Below the pieces are notes generated by a model. It searched no databases. It was given only the letters and a program-made list of their open reading frames with translations, and was not told the origin of the DNA. Below, in pieces: positions 4,903 through 21,303 of a DNA stretch of 39,180 nucleotides. The DNA lies in contig JADGAB010000005.1 in NCBI GenBank assembly GCA_015232245.1, forward strand, positions 1 through 39,180. The letters run 5' to 3'. Within the stretch, counting starts at the first letter, position 1. Each line of letters opens with the position of its first letter. Origin of the DNA: Magnetococcales bacterium (GTDB lineage Bacteria; Pseudomonadota; Magnetococcia; Magnetococcales; Magnetaquicoccaceae). Made by a program: the position numbers and the translations under genes.

Positions 4903-7071
4903 TCAAGTTAATACCGATAGCGTATTGGCCCCCTGAATGGCCACATACATCCGATCCGTGGTGGGGCAATACGCCATTCCGGACGGGGCGAACCCGGCAA
5001 TAATCGTGGCAGCCACCGTGTTGGTGGAGGGTACGATCACCGACACCGTGGATGCGCCATTGTTGGCCACATAGATCCGGTCGTTCGTTGGGCAATAGGC
5101 GACTCCGTAAGGAATGCTGCCGACCGTGATGGTGGCCGTGACGACATTGGTCGCAGGAATGATCACCGAAACCGTGCCGGGGGTACTGTTGGTCACGTAG
5201 ATTCGATCATTGCTTGGACAGTACGCGACCGCGTAGGGAGAGGTTCCGACCGTGACTGTGGCCACGACTGCATTGGTCGATGGATTGATCACCGACACCG
5301 AACCGGAACTCCGGTTGGTCACATAGATGCGGTCGTTGCTGGGACAATAGGCGACACCATTCGCGGAGTTGCCGACGGTGATGGTCGAGACGACGGTATT
5401 CGTAGCCGGGTTGATCACCGATATCGAACCAGGCGTCCCAAGGTTTGCCACATACAGCCGGTCGTTGGTGGGACAATAGGCGATGCCGGTTGGCGCATTG
5501 ACCACAGAGATGGTCGTGATGATGGCGTTGCTCGCCGGATTGACGACAGTGACGGTATTGGCACTTGCCGTGACCACATAAATTCTATCGTTGGTGGGGC
5601 AATAGGCGATTCCGGTGGGATTGTTGCTCCCGATAGCGATGGTGTCCGTCACACTGTTGGTCTCCGGACTGACCACAGACACGGTATTTGTATAATTATT
5701 GGATACATACAGGCGATCATTGGTCGGACAGTAGGCAAGCCATAAAGGAGCGGATCCCACACCGACCGAGCCTGTGTTGATCACCACGCCCATCCAATCG
5801 AGCAGACCGAAGTAGCCCTTGATATGCGCCAACGGTGTTCCTGGCAAGACTGGTCCTGGGATGCCCTGAATACCTTGTGGTCCTGTTGGGCCGGTGGCGC
5901 CTGTCAGGCCAATGGGGCCAGTCGCCCCAGTGGCTCCCGTCAGACCAATCGGGCCGGTGGCTCCTGCTGGGCCGGTCAGACCAATCGGCCCTGTTGAGCC
6001 AGCAGGGCCGGTGGCACCCGTGGCTCCCGTCAGACCAATCGGGCCAGTCGTCCCAGTGGTCCCCGTCAGACCAGTCGGTCCAGTTGCACCAGCCGGACCG
6101 GTCAGACCAATCGGCCCTGTTGATCCAGCAGGGCCGGTGGCACCCGTGGCACCCGTGGCACCCGTCAAACCAATCGGTCCAGTTGTACCAGCCGGACCGC
6201 TCAGACCAATGGGGCCGGTGGCACCAACTGCTCCAGTCAGGCCTTGAATGCCCTGGAGACCCTGGGCACCCGTCGGACCGGTGGCTCCCGTGAGACCAAT
6301 GGAGCCAGTCGCACCTGCTGAACCTGTGAGACCAATGGGGCCAGTCGCGCCAACGGCACCAGTCAGACCTTGAATGCCCTGGAGACCCTGGGCACCCGTC
6401 GGACCGGCGGCCCCCGTGAGACCAATGGGGCCAGTGGCACCTGCTGGGCCTGTGAGGCCAATCGGGCCAGTCGCGCCAACTGCACCAGTCAGACCTTGAA
6501 TGCCCTGGAGACCCTGGGTACCCGTCGGACCTGTCGGACCAGTGGCACCCGTGAGGCCAATCGGCCCGGTCGCACCTACTGGACCGGTGAGGCCAATCGG
6601 TCCGGTAGCACCCGCAGGACCAATGTCACCCTGTAGACCCATCGGGCCAACAGGGCCAATAATCCCCTGCAGACCTTGCGGGCCAACGAGGCCAACTTCA
6701 CCCTGGATCCCCTGTGGACCCATCGGGCCAATCGATCCTTCAGGACCAACATGGCCAGCGTCACCCTGTGGACCCATCGGGCCAACGGAGCCAACTTCAC
6801 CTTGAAGACCATGTGGACCCATCGGGCCAGGGTCACCAATCGGTCCAACGAGGCCCACCCCGCGTTTGAGTACGCCAACGACAACCCACGACTCACCACG
6901 GTATTCAGACACCGACCACGTTTCCGAGTGCAAATACAGGTCGCCTTCGCCTGGCATCGGACTGGTTGGTTCCGAAGTGCCAACTGTCAGCGTCGGGATA
7001 TGCTCCCCTGGGATGTCATCCACCAAGACAAATGCGTTTGTGGTTGGATTGAACTCCAAATGCTTCGACAT
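4903..7071 (-). CDS. Collagen-like fibre protein with C-terminal seven-bladed YVTN beta-propeller
   Basis: A 722-residue, probably virion-attached fibre. Residues 1-70 form a globular N-terminus ([14 protein letters not shown], then [20 protein letters not shown]) like the particle-binding domains that precede phage collagen stalks. Residues about 72-403 are near-continuous Gly-X-Y triplets ([19 protein letters not shown] type), a trimeric collagen stalk. Residues about 420-722 carry seven repeats of about 42 residues with the core [11 protein letters not shown], then a TVSV.NP.TN strand. The first strand ([18 protein letters not shown]) matches the missing last strand of repeat seven, so the ring can close by strand exchange as a complete seven-bladed propeller. 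The ATG has GGAG 8 bases upstream. Receptor or surface binding is inferred. Confidence 0.85.
5868..6855 (-). repeat. DNA repeats encoding Gly-X-Y collagen stalk
   Basis: About 1 kb of imperfect direct repeats in multiples of 9 and 18 bases encodes the collagen triplets of the fibre gene. A longer unit of about 120 bases, containing the sequence for [17 protein letters not shown], is repeated three to four times between about 6190 and 6530. Such repeats can expand or contract by recombination, changing stalk length while keeping frame. Confidence 0.85.
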
Positions 7072-11359: not shown

Positions 11360-13399
11360 TTACGCCCCCGGATTTTTGTACATCCCACGCCAGTCGATGG
11401 CCTTGGCACCGAAGTCCAGGCGGGCCTTGATCTCCACCCCATCCACGTCATAGCCGATGCGGGTTTCGATGTAGACGCCGTTCTGGCCTTCCAGGTAGGC
11501 GTATTCGATGGTGTCGATCTGGCCGGGGTTGGCGGACATGTACCACGCCTTGTCGCCGTTGACGGCGGCGTCCAGACGGGGTTCGGCGATCACCGTCAGG
11601 GTGCGCAGGGACTGAGGCACCACATCGGAGGACTTGGCCGGAATCATGTTGACCGCCAGAAGCTGTTCGGCGGTCACCTCCAGGGCAGCCGGGACGATGA
11701 TGAAGGCAGGCCGCACGTTGAGGGTGGTCAGGCCGTCAATGCCGGTCTGAATGCCCATGGCCCTGCGGGCAGCACCCAACGTGGTGACGGAGATCACGGC
11801 ACCGGCTGCCGCCAGGTTCTTGTGGTTGGCGTGAAACAAGGGCGTGCCGTCGCCCATGTTCGGGTTGGCGGTGATCACACCCCACACCACGTCACTCTCC
11901 AGGTTTGCCGCCGAGACACCGAACAGTTGCGGGATGCGGGTGAAGGCGTTCAGGTCGTCGTTGACCAGCACCTGCCGGGAGATGGCGATGATCTTGCCAT
12001 AGGTCTCCACCCGGTAGGACTCCTTGCCTTCGCCCAACGGCCCCCGCTTGAATTCTCCGCTTTCGTTGACCTTCTCCAGGGCCGGTGCCTCGCCCAACTG
12101 CACGCGGGTCATGGCCTTGAAGTCGCTGGCGCTCACCTGACGGCAGAAGGGTTGGAAGGTGCGCGGGGCGGTGTCATAGGCATTGCGCAGGGTCTTGTTG
12201 GCGACGTTGGCCAGGATGTTCGGGAAATCCGAACCGGTCAGCAACGCGCGGGTGGCTACATCGTAGCGTGTCATCCCCTTGGTGGTGCGGCCACCGTCGG
12301 CTTCCAGAAAGGCGCGCGCCATTTCCACCAGGGTCATGCCGCGCCACTCGCGGGCGGCGTCGGAAAGTTTGTGCGCAGAGGGGTCGAAGCGGTGCAGCAG
12401 GGCATTTTCCAGCGCCGCGTTGCGGGTGGTTTTCTCATCCTGGCCGGTCATGACCACATGATTCTGGATCGCGCCGGAACCACTGGCGCGCCGGGCGGCC
12501 TCGTCGATCAGACTCCGGCGGGCATCGTCCAGGGTGACGCCACCTTGCACCAGTTTGTCGGCGAACGAGCGGTCCACTTTCAATTTCTCCTGGGCGTCGT
12601 AAATATCCGCAGACCGTTTTCGTTCCGCGATTACCGCGCTCCGGGCCATGGTTTCCGCCTCTTCCGGGGTGGTTTTTCTCGCCAATTGGACAGGATCGGT
12701 GGATTTTGCGGGGGTGGCGGATCTGGTCTCGGTGGTTTTTGCCGTTTCCTCCGGGGGTGGGGGTGACGCCTGACGGGTGGCGACATCGGCGACAGGGTCT
12801 GTCGCCGGTTCAACATGGGGTTTTACTTGATCAGGCATTTCAGCTCCTCTGATTTGGATCATTTGACATGGATGGGTGGCAGTCTCTTTCGAACGGAACC
12901 CCGCGCCGGGGTCGGCACCGATCGGCACGGCGGACAACTCCAAAGGCGTCCAATCCACCGCCCGCCAAAGCGGAACTTTTCCGGTTTCCTCGGTCACTTG
13001 GTATTTGCGCACGGTGTAGCCCACGGAGACATTGCGCAGGATTCCGTCCTGGACATCCTTGAAGATGGGGGCCACCTCCTCCCGACTGGAAAACCGCACC
13101 ACGGCGCGGCCAACCCCGCCATCGATCCAGGCCCTTTCCACCACGCCCAGGATGCCCTCCAGGGCCGAGGCGTTGTGGCTGTCCAAGAGCGGCGCCCCGC
13201 CATTGAGGCGGGACAGGTCCACATGGGCCGGGTCCATTGAGAGGGTTTCGTCATAGCTCTGGCCGGACATCCAATCCCGTCTTCGCACGACTGCACCGGT
13301 GGACCAGACCATCTCCACGGTGCGGGCATCGGCGTTCACGGATTCTGGAATAAAGCTCGCAGACCGAATCTGCATCGGCATCTCAACCATTTTTGGCAT
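11360..13399 (-). CDS. Prohead protease / scaffold / major capsid protein fusion
   Basis: A 679-residue fusion. Residues about 9-170 are an HK97-type prohead protease, with the likely catalytic His75 in LLDSHN and Ser125 in RNVSVGY. Residues about 180-310 are a Pro/Glu/Thr-rich then helical linker (PPPPEETAKTTETRS, EKLKVDRSFADKL) that probably acts as scaffold. Residues about 315-679 are a capsid subunit of the Mu gpT-like type (TRNAALENALLHR, PLFHANHKNL, ending with FGAKAIDWRGMYKNP). The ATG at 13399 has GGAG 7 bases upstream and overlaps the portal end by 17 bases. Several in-frame ATGs follow within 24 bases. The head shell must come from self-cleavage at the linker. Confidence 0.88.
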   Translation of the reverse strand: MPKMVEMPMQIRSASFIPESVNADARTVEMVWSTGAVVRRRDWMSGQSYDETLSMDPAHVDLSRLNGGAPLLDSHNASALEGILGVVERAWIDGGVGRAVVRFSSREEVAPIFKDVQDGILRNVSVGYTVRKYQVTEETGKVPLWRAVDWTPLELSAVPIGADPGAGFRSKETATHPCQMIQIRGAEMPDQVKPHVEPATDPVADVATRQASPPPPEETAKTTETRSATPAKSTDPVQLARKTTPEEAETMARSAVIAERKRSADIYDAQEKLKVDRSFADKLVQGGVTLDDARRSLIDEAARRASGSGAIQNHVVMTGQDEKTTRNAALENALLHRFDPSAHKLSDAAREWRGMTLVEMARAFLEADGGRTTKGMTRYDVATRALLTGSDFPNILANVANKTLRNAYDTAPRTFQPFCRQVSASDFKAMTRVQLGEAPALEKVNESGEFKRGPLGEGKESYRVETYGKIIAISRQVLVNDDLNAFTRIPQLFGVSAANLESDVVWGVITANPNMGDGTPLFHANHKNLAAAGAVISVTTLGAARRAMGIQTGIDGLTTLNVRPAFIIVPAALEVTAEQLLAVNMIPAKSSDVVPQSLRTLTVIAEPRLDAAVNGDKAWYMSANPGQIDTIEYAYLEGQNGVYIETRIGYDVDGVEIKARLDFGAKAIDWRGMYKNPGA

Positions 13400-14861
13400 T
13401 CGCGCTCTCCATCTGTTTGGGTTGGCCATTTTTGCTGGTCTGGCGGGCGTCGATGTCCGTGACGATCTTGAACAGATCCCAAATCTTGTACATCTCACTG
13501 AATTCGGCCATGACGACGTCCGGGTCGTATCCTTGGCGCGAGATGGCCGTCTGGGGCGACATCAGCCCGTTTCGCACCGACAGCACTTCCGCCATGATGT
13601 CCTTGACCGGATCGACCGACTCAAACCGGGGTGGTGTCCATTGCAATCGGATGGGCGTGTTGCCGAGCAATCCTGCGGCCTGGGCCGTGGCCAGGAATTG
13701 ATTCCACACCGGCTGGCAAATCTGGGGAATCAGCACATGCTTCTGGGTGGCGTCCACCCGGCGGCGGAACTCCAGCAGCCCGGCGCGAATGGAGGAGTAG
13801 TTGACCTTGGAGAGGTCGCCGGTCATCAGTTCGTAGGTCAGGCCCAGGCCCGCCGCCACGGCGTGATTGTGCAACTGGGCGTATTCGGCGTACCCGGAGG
13901 TCGAGGCCGGTTGGCCGAAACGGATGTCCTCACCGGGCTTGAGGTACTCCACCACCCCAGGCTCCAGCCCTTCAATCGTCCGGCCACTGGCATCCTTGTC
14001 GCCGCCGGTGTCCTCCGGGGCCTCCGCGCCGGTGACGAACGCGGTGAAGCAGGCCTCCATTTTCTTGCGCACCAACTCCGCCACGTCGTAATCGTCCAGG
14101 TCGCGCATTCTGAGCAGCGCCGGGGCGAACCAGGTGACGCCCCGGTTCTGGCCAGGGCGCAAACGGTCATACAGATGCAGCACGTCCGTGGCCGGGACGC
14201 GGATGCTTTTGGCCATGCTGCCCTGTCGCATGGAACCCGGATGGCGCGGGAAAATCCAATACGCCGTCCGACTGCCAAGGGCATTGAACTCGATGCCCTG
14301 CTGGATGAACCCACCTCCGGGCAGACCCCGGTCAGAGGTGCTGTCCAGGTGGTCACACTCCAGCACCCGCAATTGCAGCGGCACCCGCATGCCGAACGAG
14401 GAGGACCGACGCACAATCTGCAAAAGGCACTCGCCGCTCTCCACCATGCTGCGGGCCATGAGATACTGAATGCCATAGAAGGTCGTGCGACCGTCTGCGT
14501 CGCAGTTCTCGGCGAATGCGTCCCACAGATCGGTGATCTGGTCGTCCAGAGCCTGGGTTTCCGCTTTGGGGCGCGGCATGATGCCGGAGCCGATCATGCT
14601 GGAGGCGTGGGTCATCACCGCCTTGGCGGCATAGGGGTTGTTGCGCACCAGATCCCTGGCGCGGTCCCGCAGGCGGAAGGATGCCGTGGCGATTTCGGCA
14701 TTGGCGTCGGTGCCAGCGGTGGTCCAGCCACTGGTCATGCGCCCGGTTTTGGCACCGTCGTAGCCACGACGCAGGGCCTGCAAGGCATTCCTGGTCCGGG
14801 CATGACGCAGCGCCATCCCTGGCGCGATCCATCCCGCCAGGGTGTCAAGCCAATTGCCCAT
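13383..14861 (-). CDS. Phage portal protein, lambda gpB family
   Basis: A 492-residue portal, the dodecameric ring through which DNA enters the head. Typical features are an N-terminal LRDRARDLVRNNPYAAKAV, the SGECLLQIVRR and LQLRVLECDHLD segments, the ADVLHLYDRLRPGQNRGVTWFAP-type central region, and a C-terminal METMRQEW-like part replaced here by PRFESVDPVKDIMAE. The ATG at 14861 has GAGG 8 bases upstream. The gene follows the gpW-like gene and overlaps the capsid fusion gene. Length and order match lambda. Confidence 0.93.
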   Translation of the reverse strand: MGNWLDTLAGWIAPGMALRHARTRNALQALRRGYDGAKTGRMTSGWTTAGTDANAEIATASFRLRDRARDLVRNNPYAAKAVMTHASSMIGSGIMPRPKAETQALDDQITDLWDAFAENCDADGRTTFYGIQYLMARSMVESGECLLQIVRRSSSFGMRVPLQLRVLECDHLDSTSDRGLPGGGFIQQGIEFNALGSRTAYWIFPRHPGSMRQGSMAKSIRVPATDVLHLYDRLRPGQNRGVTWFAPALLRMRDLDDYDVAELVRKKMEACFTAFVTGAEAPEDTGGDKDASGRTIEGLEPGVVEYLKPGEDIRFGQPASTSGYAEYAQLHNHAVAAGLGLTYELMTGDLSKVNYSSIRAGLLEFRRRVDATQKHVLIPQICQPVWNQFLATAQAAGLLGNTPIRLQWTPPRFESVDPVKDIMAEVLSVRNGLMSPQTAISRQGYDPDVVMAEFSEMYKIWDLFKIVTDIDARQTSKNGQPKQMESANAKNG

Positions 14862-14865
14862 CGGT

Positions 14866-15069
14866 TTATCCTCTGGAGAATCCAAGCACTGTGCGATTGG
14901 GGCGGGTGGTGCCGGAACTCCCGGCGATGGCCTGCTCGATCACCCGGATACGGCGCAGCAAATCGGCCTCCGAGCCGTATTCGACAGTTTTACCTTCGTG
15001 GACGATGCGCAGGGCACCGGCGGCGTAGGCCTGCTTGAGTTCGTCCAGTTCCGCTTGTGTGAACGTCAT
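14866..15069 (-). CDS. gpW-like head completion protein
   Basis: A 67-residue protein beginning MTFTQAELDELKQAYAAGA, then the sequence VEYGSEADLLRRIRVIEQAIAG. The helix, short beta hairpin, helix layout and the length are those of lambda gpW (68 aa), which completes the head connector before tail attachment. The ATG overlaps the terminase stop (ATGA, 15066-15069) and has GGAGGGACGGAG upstream. It sits between terminase and portal, as in lambda. Confidence 0.85.
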   Translation of the reverse strand: MTFTQAELDELKQAYAAGALRIVHEGKTVEYGSEADLLRRIRVIEQAIAGSSGTTRPNRTVLGFSRG

Positions 15070-16982
15070 CTCCGTCCCTCCCGCCATCTGTCACGCGCAT
15101 TTCCCAACCACGATTCGCGCTTTTTCCCTGAAACAATCCTGGGCTGTTCTGGCACCACGATTTTTGGTTTTTCAGGCAGGATGATCCTGGGTGCGGGAAT
15201 CTCCAGACCCTCCTTCATGGGGAACGCCTCGCGCCGGTCGGCCTCCTTGTTCAACTGGAGGCCCATGGACATCAGGCCGTGCAGGGCAGCCAACGCATAC
15301 ACCCGGCAGTCCAAGGCCTCGTTGCGGTCGCCGTCTTTTTTGTGCCACTCGCGTACCTGACGGCCCTTGATGTAACGGGTGGCGACCTTCTCCGCCGTCA
15401 ATTGGCGAAACCACTCGGCATCCCTCTCCTTCGGAAAATGGCAGTACCCTGGCCCAGGTTCTTGAATACGCAGCCGGGCGTAGATCGCCTCCTTGGCCGT
15501 ATCCACGCCGATCGCAAACAGAGGGACACGGGCTTTGTTGTTCGTTCGCCCAACTTTTGGCCAGATCAATTTCCCTGGCCCGCCAACCCCCTTGATCGGC
15601 CAGATTCTCCCGGCTTGACGCGCCTTGCAGAACAGGTAAACGCCCTGGGCATGGTGCCCGCCAGAGTCGATTGCAGCGGCACGGATGCGCAAATCAGGCA
15701 ATTGCCGGGCATGCGGGAACGTCCGCTGCAGCAGCACATCAAGATCATTCCAGATTGTCGGGCTGGTCGGGTCGCCATAAAGCACCCGGTAGTCTATTGA
15801 CCAGGACTCCTCATCCCGGCCCCAACCGACAAACTCGATTTCAAAACGGTTGTCCTGTACGTCCACACCGACGGTGATCAATACGACGCCAGCGGGGAGG
15901 GTTGGTCCAAAATCCTCGCGCCGAGCCATCAACCCTTCGCTGTCCAGCTTCTCGGCGGTCTCTTCCCACGATTGCGCCAACACCGTATTGATCCATTCCT
16001 TCAGTTGAAACGGGTCACGGTGCTTCTCCCCATGCTCCACCGCGATATCCCCCCATGAATTCCAGCCGAGCGGGCAATACAGTCCGTTGAGGTGGAATCC
16101 TGCCGCCTTCCTGATGCCCGGAGAACTGGCGATCCACCTCCCATGGAGCAGCATCTTTGTTTTGTGAAATTCCTGGATCTCTGCTTCGCAATGCACGCAC
16201 ACATAATGCGCCAGGTGGCGTTGGCCTTGCGCAAACCGGATCTGCGCCCACTCCAGAATCTGCAATGCGTTGCAGAACGGGCATGGCACCCAGTAGTACC
16301 TCTGGTCGCTTTCCTCAAAGGCCTTTTCGATCCGGGAGAAGCCCTTGATGGTGGGTGTCGAGGTCAACAGGATTTTTTTGCTGTTGCCGAAGGTGTTGGT
16401 ACGCCGCAGCGCCAAGCCAACCGGATCACCCTGGCCATCCACATCGCCTTCAAAACGGTCAATTTCGTCCAAAAAGACAAAGCGCACCGGCATGCTGGAC
16501 AGCGACGCGCTTGAATTCGACCCGACGATGCTTAAAATGCCTCCTCTGAATTCCTTCAACAACATGGTGTTGCCGCTGTCTCTGCTTCTTGAGTCACTGA
16601 CCAGACCTTTCAGAACGGGACTGGTTTCGATCATCGGCGTCAACCGCTGTTTCGAATACTTCTCAGCAGTGCCAAGCGTGGGCTGGACCATCAGGATCGG
16701 GCCGGGCGTCAAGTCGATGATGCTCCCAATCCAGTTCAAGCCAACTTCTGTTTTGCCAAGTTGTGAGGCCATCATCACCACCACCTTCTGGTGGGGTGAC
16801 GATTCAGACAGGCAGTCCATGATCTCCCGCAGGTAGGGGGTCCGGTCGGTGCGCCACAGTCCAGGCTCTTTTGCCGACACCGACGACAACACCCGGTTCC
16901 GGTCCGCCCATTCTGAGACGGTCATTCTTGGCGTTGGCTTGCGACCCGCACGGGCGGACAACAGATGAGACGAAATGACCAT
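15066..16982 (-). CDS. terL: Terminase large subunit, GpA family
   Basis: A 638-residue DNA-packaging motor. The ATPase part has the Walker A-like ASQLGKTE (residues 72-79) and Walker B RFVFLDEID (157-165), then motif III LLTSTPTIKGFSRIEKAF. Two CxxC pairs (CPFC and CVHC, about residues 230-270) form the zinc element of GpA terminases. The nuclease part starts near VGVDVQDNRFEIEFVGWG, with further acidic positions and an AAIDSGGHH segment. The ATG at 16982 has GGAAG upstream; an open stretch further upstream was not used. It directly follows the TerS-like/methyltransferase gene (22 bases). Confidence 0.95.
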   Translation of the reverse strand: MVISSHLLSARAGRKPTPRMTVSEWADRNRVLSSVSAKEPGLWRTDRTPYLREIMDCLSESSPHQKVVVMMASQLGKTEVGLNWIGSIIDLTPGPILMVQPTLGTAEKYSKQRLTPMIETSPVLKGLVSDSRSRDSGNTMLLKEFRGGILSIVGSNSSASLSSMPVRFVFLDEIDRFEGDVDGQGDPVGLALRRTNTFGNSKKILLTSTPTIKGFSRIEKAFEESDQRYYWVPCPFCNALQILEWAQIRFAQGQRHLAHYVCVHCEAEIQEFHKTKMLLHGRWIASSPGIRKAAGFHLNGLYCPLGWNSWGDIAVEHGEKHRDPFQLKEWINTVLAQSWEETAEKLDSEGLMARREDFGPTLPAGVVLITVGVDVQDNRFEIEFVGWGRDEESWSIDYRVLYGDPTSPTIWNDLDVLLQRTFPHARQLPDLRIRAAAIDSGGHHAQGVYLFCKARQAGRIWPIKGVGGPGKLIWPKVGRTNNKARVPLFAIGVDTAKEAIYARLRIQEPGPGYCHFPKERDAEWFRQLTAEKVATRYIKGRQVREWHKKDGDRNEALDCRVYALAALHGLMSMGLQLNKEADRREAFPMKEGLEIPAPRIILPEKPKIVVPEQPRIVSGKKRESWLGNARDRWREGRR

Positions 16983-17004: not shown

Positions 17005-18345
17005 TTACGATGCGTCGGAGGAATCCAGCGCAACGCCGCGCTCTTTCGCCACTTGCTCAAAAGTCTTGCCGCCAGAACCTTCCAGGTAGGCGATTTTGCC
17101 CGTGGCCTGGATGAACCGCTTCACGCCCACATCAACGTAAATCGGGCTGATTTCCATGGCATACACCCGGCGGTGGGTCAGGTGACCGGCCATGATCTGG
17201 GAACCGGAACCGCTGAATGGCTCATAGCACAGCCCGCCAATCGGGACGTGTTGCCTCATCGGGATGCCAAAGCAGTCCAGGGGCTTGGGCGTCGGGTGAT
17301 CCGGGCGTTCGTCCCCGGCCAGCGACTTCAGATCCCAGACTGTTGACGCTGACTCGGCATCCTCGATCTTGGCTGGCCGGTTGCCCCGGATCCAGCCATA
17401 GAAACAGGGTTCGTGCTTCCACAGGTAATGGGTGCGGGTCAAGACGGAGGCGTTCTTGTTCCAGATGATTTGTTGATGGACAAAAGCCCCCAGTTTTTCC
17501 CAAACTGCCTCCACCATGGCCTGACGCTTGGAAGCGTGCCAGCAATACCATGCCGCGTGAGGGTCGATGGCATGATCGATGGCCGCCCGGATGAATCCCT
17601 CGTAAAGTTCCGGCCCCTGACTGGCGTCATCCCAGGTGACGCCGTAGGTGCCTGACCAGTCCTTGTTGCCGCCCACCCAGCCTTTTTTGCCAACGGCGGC
17701 CACGGCGTCTGGTCCTTCATTTGCGGATTTTGCCTTGTCCCGTTTGTTCGGCGGATGATTTGTTCCATCATAATCCACAAGGTAGGGCGGATCGGTCGCA
17801 AACAGGATGGCCCGTTCGCCATTCATCAGGCGGATGACGTCCTCGGCCTTCGTGCTGTCGCCGCACAGGAGGCGGTGATCCCCCAGCACCCAAAGATCGT
17901 TGGGACGGGTGACCGGGTTGACGGGTGGTTCGGGGATGACGTCCTCGCCGCCGATGCCATCACCATCGCCTTCCTCACCATCTCCCTGTTCAAATCCATC
18001 CAGAAAACCGGCGACATCCTCGTCCGAGAAGCCGATCACATCGGTGTCAACCGGAGGGGCTGCGGCAACCGGAGGGGCTGCGGCAATTGGAGATGCCCCA
18101 GTGACTGGACGTGCCTCGGTTGCTGGAGGTGTCCCGATGACTGGAGGTGCCCCGGTTGCTGGAGTCGGCTGTGGACGATTGCGCTGTTGCGCTGGATCAG
18201 TGTTTGATTCCCATGCTTTGTCGGCCTTGGCCTGATCTATCGATCCGTCAGGATTGCGCTGAATGCGACCACTCTTGATCGCTTTGTCCACCGCCGATGG
18301 TGCAACGCCTCGATGTCTGGCGTATTCACGAACCCCCATGCCCAT
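17005..18345 (-). CDS. Fusion of small-terminase-like HTH domain and DNA methyltransferase
   Basis: A 446-residue protein. Residues 4-30 (VREYARHRGVAPSAVDKAIK), followed by NPDGSIDQAKADKAW and NTDPAQQ, match the HTH start of phage Nu1-like small terminase / 'element of external origin' proteins. Residues about 57-100 are a Pro/Ala linker of short repeats (TGAPPVIGTPPAT), followed by an acidic stretch. Residues 150-420 are a beta-class methyltransferase: WVLGDHRLLCGDS, catalytic DPPY (175-178), a target-recognition region, then the cofactor motif EPFSGSG (365-371) after the catalytic motif. It should methylate adenine N6 or cytosine N4. The position directly upstream of terL is that of terS. 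An in-frame ATG at 18339 is an alternative start. Confidence 0.85.
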   Translation of the reverse strand: MGMGVREYARHRGVAPSAVDKAIKSGRIQRNPDGSIDQAKADKAWESNTDPAQQRNRPQPTPATGAPPVIGTPPATEARPVTGASPIAAAPPVAAAPPVDTDVIGFSDEDVAGFLDGFEQGDGEEGDGDGIGGEDVIPEPPVNPVTRPNDLWVLGDHRLLCGDSTKAEDVIRLMNGERAILFATDPPYLVDYDGTNHPPNKRDKAKSANEGPDAVAAVGKKGWVGGNKDWSGTYGVTWDDASQGPELYEGFIRAAIDHAIDPHAAWYCWHASKRQAMVEAVWEKLGAFVHQQIIWNKNASVLTRTHYLWKHEPCFYGWIRGNRPAKIEDAESASTVWDLKSLAGDERPDHPTPKPLDCFGIPMRQHVPIGGLCYEPFSGSGSQIMAGHLTHRRVYAMEISPIYVDVGVKRFIQATGKIAYLEGSGGKTFEQVAKERGVALDSSDAS

Positions 18346-18366: not shown

Positions 18367-18549
18367 TGTTCATTCGACTGTTCGGCAAGTACTTGTTCAC
18401 TGTTCACCCGGAGTGTTCACCGAATGTTCGCTCACTGTTCACCCGGAGTGTTCACCGAGTGTTCACTCGCTGTTCACCCGGATTCGGATTTTTTATGTTA
18501 TTTTTCAAGTGATTGTCTCTCTTGATTTTCAGAAAATTTCAGGGTGTTC
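18367..18549. repeat. Phased TGTTC(ACC) repeat array upstream of the terminase genes
   Basis: TGTTC begins at 18367, 18379, 18394, 18401, 18414, 18425, 18436, 18449, 18460, 18471 and again at 18545. Most copies read TGTTCACC or TGTTCACT. Between 18401 and 18471 the array is a 35-bp unit (offsets 0, 13, 24) repeated exactly twice, so copies are 11-13 bp apart, close to one helix turn. It starts 22 bases upstream of the TerS-like start codon. A terminase-binding (cos/pac) site or iterons are the most likely uses; which one is not shown. Confidence 0.8.
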
Positions 18550-18872
18550 ACCCGGTTTTTGGTCTGACGCTGGGCGGCTTTCGGGGTCGCGCGGACCGCG
18601 CGGCCCTGGAGGCCAGGAAGGAACCATGGATGCCAGTGGCATGGAGCAGCAGCCAGGACGCGACACGGCGCGCCATGTGCGGCCTGTTGGCCATTTTTGA
18701 CCGCCGAATCATCTTTTTGTTTTCGACTCCATGTTGGTTGCCGTTCTCAGGCTGCGAACCATTCTCTTGCCCAAGCGTATCTGGTGCGGCTTCTCCGCAG
18801 CCTGCGGTACCATGGGCACACTTGGCATTCATCATAAAAATCTTCAAAAACATATAATTCATCAAAACAGTG
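18550..18872. other. Intergenic region without a recognisable gene
   Basis: Between the repeat array and the first DUF3489 leader. Open frames here on either strand are short and have low-quality composition. The right third (18830-18870) is AT-rich and contains TATAAT at 18853-18858, which may be a promoter element, but no well-placed -35 partner is visible. Confidence 0.5.
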
Positions 18873-18924
18873 CTTGATAAGGTGGCGCGACCGATGGCTT
18901 CATGTGTCCAACGCAAACAACCAC
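18873..18924 (+). promoter_or_regulatory. Duplicated leader, copy 1, upstream of first DUF3489 gene
   Basis: This 52-base stretch (starts CTTGATAAGGTGGCG and contains CGATGGCTTCAT and CGCAAACAAC) is about 75-80% identical to 19880-19932. Both lie just upstream of a DUF3489 paralogue at the same distance and are preceded by AT-rich DNA. It is probably a shared promoter or operator; exact elements cannot be assigned. Confidence 0.5.
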
Positions 18925-18941
18925 CTTCAGGAGCAAACACC

Positions 18942-19403
18942 ATGAGCGAACTCACCACCACTCAACAGACCGTCCTCCACGCCGCAGCCGCGCGCGAAGA
19001 TGGGTCCATCCACCCTATGCCAAGCAACGTCAAGGGCGGTGCCGCCATGAAGGTGATCGACTCCATGCGTACCAAGGGGCTGATCAAGGCCGATGCAGAC
19101 ACCATCAGCGACGTTGGATACCGCGCCATCGGGTTGGAGGCACCCACAGCCTTGGCCCTGGCAACGACCAAGACCAGTCGCACCAATACCAAAAAGGCCA
19201 AGGTGATCGAATTGATGAAACGCCCCGAAGGGGCCACCGCCGCCCAGATCGCCGAGGTCACCGGGTGGCAAAGTCACACGATTCGGGGCTTTCTCTCCCT
19301 GGCCAAATCGAAAATGGGATTGGCGATCACCACCAACCGCCTGTGGGTGGCGGGTGCGAACCAACTGGGGTCACCGGGTTCCTACACGACCTACTTCGCA
19401 TGA
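18942..19403 (+). CDS. DUF3489 domain protein (short paralogue, 153 aa)
   Basis: The N-terminal domain (residues 1-68: MSELTTTQQTVLHAAA, DGSIHPMP, GYRAIGL) looks like a winged-helix unit. A short linker leads to the C-terminal DUF3489 domain (residues about 83-130: KKAKVIELMKRPEGATAAQI and TGWQSHTIRGFLS), again helix-turn-helix-like. Function is unknown; DNA binding is a reasonable inference. The ATG has AGGAG 8 bases upstream. It is on the plus strand, opposite to the phage operons, and is followed by a hairpin at 19415-19436. The second, longer paralogue is at 19951. Confidence 0.82.
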   Translation: MSELTTTQQTVLHAAAAREDGSIHPMPSNVKGGAAMKVIDSMRTKGLIKADADTISDVGYRAIGLEAPTALALATTKTSRTNTKKAKVIELMKRPEGATAAQIAEVTGWQSHTIRGFLSLAKSKMGLAITTNRLWVAGANQLGSPGSYTTYFA

Positions 19404-19879: not shown

Positions 19880-19932
19880 CTTGATATGGTTGCGTCTTCG
19901 ATGGCTTCATTGTGGCCATCGCAAACAACAAC
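19880..19932 (+). promoter_or_regulatory. Duplicated leader, copy 2, upstream of second DUF3489 gene
   Basis: Matches 18873-18924: CTTGATATGGTTGCG, CGATGGCTTCAT and CGCAAACAAC are conserved in order and spacing. It is preceded by a very AT-rich stretch (19828-19878). The parallel placement argues that both DUF3489 genes are controlled in the same way. Confidence 0.5.
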
Positions 19933-19950
19933 CAAGCAAGAGCAACCACG

Positions 19951-21303
19951 ATGAACGAACTGACCCCCACTCAAAAAACCATCCTTGAAGCCGCCATTGG
20001 TCACCTCAACGGCTCGATCCACCCCCTGCCAGAGAACCTCAAGGGCGAGGCCGCCCGGAAGGTGATCAAGTGCCTGCTCAAGAAAGAACTGATCGAGGAG
20101 GACGGCCATGAAGCCTGGCGCATCACCGAAGCCGGATACCGGGCCATCGGGTTGACCCTGCCCCAGGATGCGGAAGTGCAACACAACGCCATCGATGATT
20201 ACGAAGCGGATGTCGTCACTGCCGAGCAGTCCGTGATGACCGAAACAGCCGATGCCACCACAGACCTTGCAACGGACATCCCCACCACTGTCGGGCAGGC
20301 TGATGGCGAACCCTTCACAACCCTGAATGTGGAAGTCGACGACACCCTCGCGCAGTTGCCGGAGGAGACCTCCTGCCTCAACGTGTCCACGACCGCAGCA
20401 TTGACCCTGGCCGACGCAGAGAAGGCCTACGCTGAAGCCGACGCCGCATACGAAGCGGCGGCCAAGGCGTACCAAGATGCAGACGACGCACTGAACAAAA
20501 CCATCCGCAAGGGGAAGAGCCAGGCCATCATCGAGCAGGCCCGCGAGGAGATGGTTGCCGCCAGGGAAGCCGCCAACCAGACCGCCGAGGCCGCCATGAC
20601 CGCGCAGACCATTCTGAACAGCATCGCGTCACAAGCAACCACGGATGCGGACACCACCGACGAAACGCCCACGGCCCTGCCAACTGCCGACAAGCTGCCA
20701 AAATTCATCACCATCGAGGTTTCGCCGGTCATGCGCATTGCCATCGAAGCGGCCTTGAACACCCCTTTGGCCATGACGATTGACGGCGAACCGGACCCGA
20801 CCATGGAAACCGGAGAGAATTTCGAGGAGGACATTGCCGCCGCCGAACAGTCTCTGGCCGAAACGCAAACCCAGGCATCGACGGAAGCCGACGAGCGTGC
20901 CCTGATCGCCTTGCTTGAAATCATCTCGCGACGCCATCTGAGCATCGAGACGTTGGAAACCCGACTGTCAGACAGCCTGGATTTCCACAACATTGCGGTT
21001 TGGTGCATCAGAAATGCCTTGATCGCCGCCTACGAGGCCGGGTTGCAGGCAGCCAAAAAGCCCACCATCAAAAGGACGCCCAAGGCCTCCGCCGACAAGG
21101 CACCCAGAGACAACAAAAAGTCCATGGTCCTGGCGATGCTCGCCCGGCCTGATGGTGCCACCATCGAACAGATCGCCGATGCAACCAACTGGCAAACCCA
21201 CACGATCAGGAGTTTTCTTTCCATCGCCAAAAAGAAGGGCGCGAACATCGAGATGGCGGGCACCAGCACCGACGGATCCCGCATCTACCACATTGCCGCC
21301 TGA
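19951..21303 (+). CDS. DUF3489 domain protein with long Ala-rich coiled-coil insert (450 aa)
   Basis: The N-terminal 70 residues (MNELTPTQKTILEAAI, NGSIHPLPENLKG, GYRAIGL) are homologous to the short paralogue at 18942. The C-terminal about 70 residues (KKSMVLAMLARPDGATIEQI, TNWQTHTIRSFLS, SRIYHIAA) form the DUF3489 domain. Between them lie about 300 residues rich in Ala, Thr, Asp and Glu, with a clear heptad-like stretch around residues 150-220 (DAEKAYAEADAAYEAAAKAY). It therefore looks like the short gene with a coiled-coil spacer. The ATG at 19951 was chosen by alignment with the paralogue; a GTG at 19912 is possible. Confidence 0.8.
   Translation: MNELTPTQKTILEAAIGHLNGSIHPLPENLKGEAARKVIKCLLKKELIEEDGHEAWRITEAGYRAIGLTLPQDAEVQHNAIDDYEADVVTAEQSVMTETADATTDLATDIPTTVGQADGEPFTTLNVEVDDTLAQLPEETSCLNVSTTAALTLADAEKAYAEADAAYEAAAKAYQDADDALNKTIRKGKSQAIIEQAREEMVAAREAANQTAEAAMTAQTILNSIASQATTDADTTDETPTALPTADKLPKFITIEVSPVMRIAIEAALNTPLAMTIDGEPDPTMETGENFEEDIAAAEQSLAETQTQASTEADERALIALLEIISRRHLSIETLETRLSDSLDFHNIAVWCIRNALIAAYEAGLQAAKKPTIKRTPKASADKAPRDNKKSMVLAMLARPDGATIEQIADATNWQTHTIRSFLSIAKKKGANIEMAGTSTDGSRIYHIAA

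Follow-up and report, generated by a model that had tools for sequence, protein, structure and literature searches.

Small terminases (TerS) share a plan in which an N-terminal helix-turn-helix (HTH) reads DNA, a core forms a ring and a C-terminal part recruits TerL (PMC9611059, PMC7617512). The site read in phages with a lambda-type cos comprises cosQ, cosN and cosB with its TerS-binding R sequences, and in lambda, 21 and N15 the recognition helix and the R site together set packaging specificity (PMC4669245, PMC9026076). DNA methyltransferases have also been linked to packaging modules. ParB-methyltransferases encoded beside terminase genes constitute the ParB-Tls locus, whose ParB, according to an earlier proposal, guides modification to particular sites while DNA is packaged (Iyer et al. 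2013, as cited in PMC6536676), and cleavage at the pac site of P1 is regulated by Dam adenine methylation (Sternberg and Coulby 1990, as cited in PMC4190342). The gene described here draws on both families. It encodes the same methyltransferase domain as the ParB-Tls proteins, with up to 88-90% identity to the Magnetococcia members, and occupies the same place, adjoining the terminase genes, but its head is a TerS HTH and not a ParB. With the small terminases of family phrog_57 (from Rhodobacter phages such as RcKemmy, and gp23 of AcaML1) it has in common the HTH, a Pro-rich linker, a position beside cos and terL and matching iterons, whereas a methyltransferase stands where these proteins carry their core and C-terminal part.

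The gene lies on the minus strand at 17,005-18,345 of the window, by which we mean the whole 39,180-nucleotide stretch of contig JADGAB010000005.1 that was analysed. It reads as a single 446-aa frame from an ATG at 18,345, and with zero internal stops and both halves matching conserved families over long stretches, the frame is not a product of chance. In PHROG profile searches, residues 2-66 match the small-terminase family phrog_57 (E 1.4e-8) and residues 100-437 the DNA methyltransferase family phrog_498 (E 1e-71), and Pfam N6_N4_Mtase scores above its cut-off. The HTH itself (residues 1-56, 18,178-18,345) is Cro-like, is 80% identical to the split TerS proteins of loci L140 and L132, and carries the recognition helix APSAVDKA at 18,280-18,303. 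It is followed by a Pro/Ala linker (residues 57-99, 18,049-18,177) whose DNA consists of 18-nt tandem repeats (18,048-18,086 with a 100% match, and 18,088-18,164), and the second perfect repeat ends where the first residue alignable with ParB-methyltransferases begins, placing the fusion junction PPV/DTD at 18,040-18,057. The remaining part of about 347 residues (17,008-18,048) is 88% identical to the ParB-methyltransferase homologue of genome G030; its catalytic domain is complete and its ParB domain is absent. Both catalytic motifs are intact and stand in the beta-class order, motif IV, DPPY (residues 185-188, 17,782-17,793), preceding the SAM-binding motif I, EPFSGSG (residues 375-381, 17,203-17,223). 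We take the DPPY motif to suggest methylation at N6 of adenine. The initial annotation, which had described one 446-aa frame holding an HTH, a Pro/Ala linker and a complete beta-class methyltransferase, is thus borne out, the strand being minus.

The same annotation had placed this frame in the terS position, and the fused gene indeed sits between cos and terL. Next comes a GpA-type terL (15,066-16,982, minus strand; GpA ATPase and nuclease, E < 1e-90), which probably starts with the ATG at 16,982, 22 nt past the stop of the fused gene. The rest of the contig reads as a siphovirus-like prophage with tail, head decoration, prohead protease/capsid, portal and head-tail adaptor genes, a spanin-like gene, replication genes, a repressor and a serine integrase; the contig end cuts the tape-measure gene, and the visible phage is therefore partial. 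The prohead protease and major capsid protein are read from a single 712-aa frame (11,360-13,498, minus strand; phrog_4523). A tail-fibre-like protein (4,903-7,071, minus strand) combines long collagen-like GxxGxxG repeats with several subsequent repeats of about 42 aa, YCPTNDRxYV, which are encoded by 126-nt tandem repeats. Two related DUF3489/phrog_10315 genes lie on the plus strand between the lysis genes and cos (18,870-19,403 and 19,912-21,303).

Upstream of the fused gene, also on the minus strand, a cos-like block GGTTCCTTCCTGGCC...GCGCGGTCCGCGCGACCCCG...CAGCGTCAG occupies 18,561-18,625. Its pattern, GGKTCCTTCC followed by a GC-rich dyad and GCxCAG, is conserved upstream of terS in relatives and is kept even before TerS proteins with different heads. 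Between this block and the gene lie the iterons of a candidate cosB (18,394-18,551, minus strand), eight exact copies of GTGAACA starting at 18,394, 18,401, 18,414, 18,436, 18,449, 18,460, 18,471 and 18,545 and one variant at 18,425, mostly spaced by 11-13 bp. Closely spaced pairs of GTGAACA occur nowhere else in the 3.7-Mb metagenome-assembled genome (MAG). The order of a cosQ/cosN-like block and then candidate TerS-binding repeats upstream of terS is, as far as sequence can tell, that of a lambda-type cos, cosQ and cosN being assigned by position and conservation. GATC is absent from the cos region and GANTC occurs in it once.

Every related phage with iterons has its own 3-nt core within the frame GGTNNNCA, and this core tracks the recognition helix of the TerS. 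The helix APSAVE is paired with GGA, APSAVD with GAA, HTAV[E/D] with TGC, HTAV[T/N/A] with TTC, EGA[V/I]R with ACG, DTAVH with TTG, [DA/ET]AVR with TCG and HV[A/S]VL with TAC, and the pair found in the window, APSAVD/GTGAACA, is nearest to APSAVE/GTGGACA. Loci with the pairing include, besides 18,394-18,551 of the window, L120, L121, L124, L126, L132, L133, L018, L300, L311 and L321. It is not universal, no iterons being seen upstream at L309, L312-L314 and L324. Across 21 dereplicated loci, which share ancestry and whose iterons were called by a GT-NNN pattern chosen after inspection, with a few weak calls, TerS residues 16, 17 and 20 correlate with the iteron core at a Mantel r of 0.81 (permutation p = 5e-5); the remaining HTH residues give r = 0.18, and no column of the domain ranks above these three. 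The best solved relative of the HTH profile is lambda Cro (E 0.0027), in which the three residues align to Gln27, Ser28 and Asn31, which are base-contacting residues of Cro.

The Cro-like fold led us to consider a Cro-type regulator as the source of the HTH, an assignment that we reject, since the nearest homologues are core-bearing TerS proteins beside cos and terL. These homologues, up to 80% identical, together with the phrog_57 match uphold the earlier reading of a terminase HTH over an origin in some other family, and the pairing with the iterons confirms, at the level of sequence, a TerS-derived cos reader on grounds beyond those of the initial annotation. As in lambda, 21 and N15, residues of the recognition helix are matched to repeats in cosB beside cosQ/cosN; phages of the type found in the window differ in that each cos holds several short iterons (about 3-13) and that helices and cores pair in a wider range of combinations, a range that appears to us to be new relative to what is known from those three phages. 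A readable rule of TerS-cos specificity across phages is a possible reading of these pairings.

That rule also bears on the other TerS genes of the host genome. The earlier claim depended on there being no separate terS elsewhere in the prophage, and the contig, which holds part of that prophage, yielded no second TerS. Nor did the rest of the MAG yield a TerS predicted to read GTGAACA iterons. The other TerS genes found there are C44, with the helix SHVAVL and GGTTACA repeats, and C224, of a different type; because their recognition helices differ, neither would be expected to read GTGAACA.

In relatives, the two halves of the fused protein belong to separate genes, a terS of about 160-230 aa and a ParB-methyltransferase of about 440-500 aa, and many Magnetococcia prophages have the order terS, methyltransferase gene, terL, the second gene immediately following the first. 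In most cases TerS matches from these split relatives stop no later than residues 97-104 of the fused protein, and full-length methyltransferase matches, from separate genes, start at residues 98-101. The split TerS proteins have a Pro-rich linker and then a conserved core, PNYQVSRAVRETYNAKL...ALEEL, so that the Pro/Ala linker, to judge from its sequence, is the counterpart of an ordinary TerS linker and nothing peculiar to the fusion. The core is absent from the fused protein and from the whole contig. Together with the C-terminus it makes up about 90-95 aa in relatives and is present in all full-length split ones, while in the G030 homologue the missing ParB domain, recognised by ParB_N and ParB-type matches, takes up about 148 aa of the frame. 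Set against a TerS, then, the fused protein has the N-terminal HTH, the cos/terL position and the iteron match and lacks the central core and the C-terminal TerL-binding part; set against a ParB-methyltransferase, it has the domain with motifs IV and I and the terminase-side location and lacks the N-terminal ParB domain.

The adjacency of terS and a methyltransferase gene is ordinary; their fusion is not. Among 137 loci picked by TerS alone, the methyltransferase lies directly downstream in 25 and upstream in 61. An HTH and a methyltransferase in one frame were found at no other of 299 loci (157 other distinct TerS upstream regions), and there were no further fusions in 48 Magnetococcia genomes or in 299 genomes of the phylum, in which every other TerS frame is at most 335 aa long; relatives in the collection scans were the best 80 of 143-283. 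The 50,697 phage records hold no fusion, three AcaML1 records covering the query with split genes, none of 72,556 plasmids covers 80% of the query, and the exact junction sequence has no match in viral contigs. The survey of fused versus split homologues that the initial annotation had suggested accordingly returned, within these collections, split forms throughout the relatives and a fusion in the window only. Two loci were considered as further fusions and rejected, AcaML1, where the match spans residues 1-445 yet falls on three separate genes, and L061, which is compact but split and in the opposite gene order. AcaML1 (L006, JX507079; 6001-6534 and 11758-12219) also merits a remark on its annotation, as the 'gpNu1' small terminase gp33 does not look like a TerS, whereas gp23, for which the annotation gives 'hypothetical', is a full-length TerS that has GTTTCCA iterons upstream and adjoins two ParB-methyltransferases. 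A literature search covering mostly journals outside subscription turned up no account of a TerS-methyltransferase fusion.

With the TerS core and C-terminus absent and the fusion seen once, the most economical explanation is that a deletion produced a chimera in what otherwise looks like an intact stretch of a lambda-like cos prophage, carried by an uncultured Magnetococcia bacterium of magnetotactic type, in which the methyltransferase has been kept, its HTH head is now aimed at cos and packaging is probably defective; we give this reading a probability of roughly 0.6. We propose the following course of events. The ancestor would most likely have had the layout cos, terS, ParB-methyltransferase, terL, and a recent in-frame deletion of roughly 0.6-0.9 kb would have fused the TerS head with its own Pro linker (residues 1-99) to the methyltransferase just past its ParB domain; its size and breakpoints are estimates, because the unfused parental allele was not found. 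The product should bind the GTGAACA iterons of cos through its HTH and methylate adenines across the genome, with a preference for sites near cos. As only the HTH of the TerS plan remains, the protein is expected to bind DNA yet not to act as a TerS, being presumably unable to build the TerS ring or to recruit TerL, and the prophage would probably be packaging-defective or dependent on TerS from elsewhere. The methyltransferase, for its part, looks intact: compared with G030 it shows dN 0.065 and dS 0.69, a dN/dS of about 0.09 that indicates purifying selection, and among 223 comparable sites it has four window-specific residue changes, none of them in the catalytic motifs. The dN/dS value speaks for an intact enzyme and not for selection on the fused state, on which it is uninformative because most of the divergence from G030 is older than the fusion.

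Whether the fusion exists in the phage at all has to be asked, since it stands on one contig of a single MAG of 481 contigs (3.7 Mb, 76% complete), has tandem 18-nt repeats at its junction and finds all its relatives split; the metagenome assembly could have bridged a gap between terS and methyltransferase, or combined the two from different variants, of a phage whose genes are in fact split. Against a mis-join, the reading frame is preserved and the joint is clean with respect to domains, and the longest repeated word around the junction is 18 nt, while the best other match of the junction region in the MAG is 20 nt at 95%, which is at chance level. Nor is an orphan TerS core or a matching ParB fragment left over, neither a core nor a second matching ParB copy occurring in the MAG outside other prophages. 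These searches lower the chance of a mis-join but do not remove it, and we give an artefact a low but real probability. Less likely still is that the fusion is a working, bifunctional packaging protein, the phage's own TerS, with methylation near cos regulating the start of packaging as Dam does at the pac site of P1. The HTH and the adjoining iterons fit the TerS/cos pattern, the gene lies between cos and terL, and the contig has yielded no other terS; the parts that are missing, however, are those that build the ring and recruit TerL (PMC7617512, PMC9611059), and the fusion occurs once. To find it licensing packaging would surprise us, also because no lambda-type cos phage is known to need methylation. 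The suggestion in the initial annotation that packaging starts only on DNA methylated by a fused TerS-methyltransferase finds no support in a protein without the TerS core and C-terminus that is seen once. P1 offers a precedent for packaging regulated by methylation (PMC4190342), and adenine methylation, predicted here, is common to both; P1, however, is a pac phage with separate proteins and an experimentally shown link, whereas the fused protein is known from its sequence alone.

The TerS head might instead be a mere passenger on a methyltransferase that acts genome-wide, for anti-restriction or host benefit, the HTH having no targeting role. The methyltransferases of lactococcal packaging modules protect against restriction enzymes and have been judged unlikely regulators of packaging (PMC4190342), and the domain stays strongly conserved in the methyltransferases of phages whose iterons differ. 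Against a passenger stand an HTH and recognition residues that are intact and fit the adjoining iterons, though this fit may reflect the state before the fusion, and we hold such a role to be improbable. The deletion chimera that we favour leaves room for selection on the fusion itself, because both flanking domains are complete and in frame, which would be rare for a random deletion. There is a small chance that the head swap was selected as such, the cos reader of TerS replacing ParB so that the enzyme methylates specifically the phage's own packaging site.

If true, such a selected swap would directly support the view that the methyltransferases of packaging modules are aimed at the DNA being packaged. 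With a packaging-site reader in the place usually taken by a ParB head, the proposal that modification is aimed by the head during packaging becomes testable. Beyond this one gene, the pairing of recognition helix and iteron differs between phages, so that it could serve to predict which TerS packages which genome.
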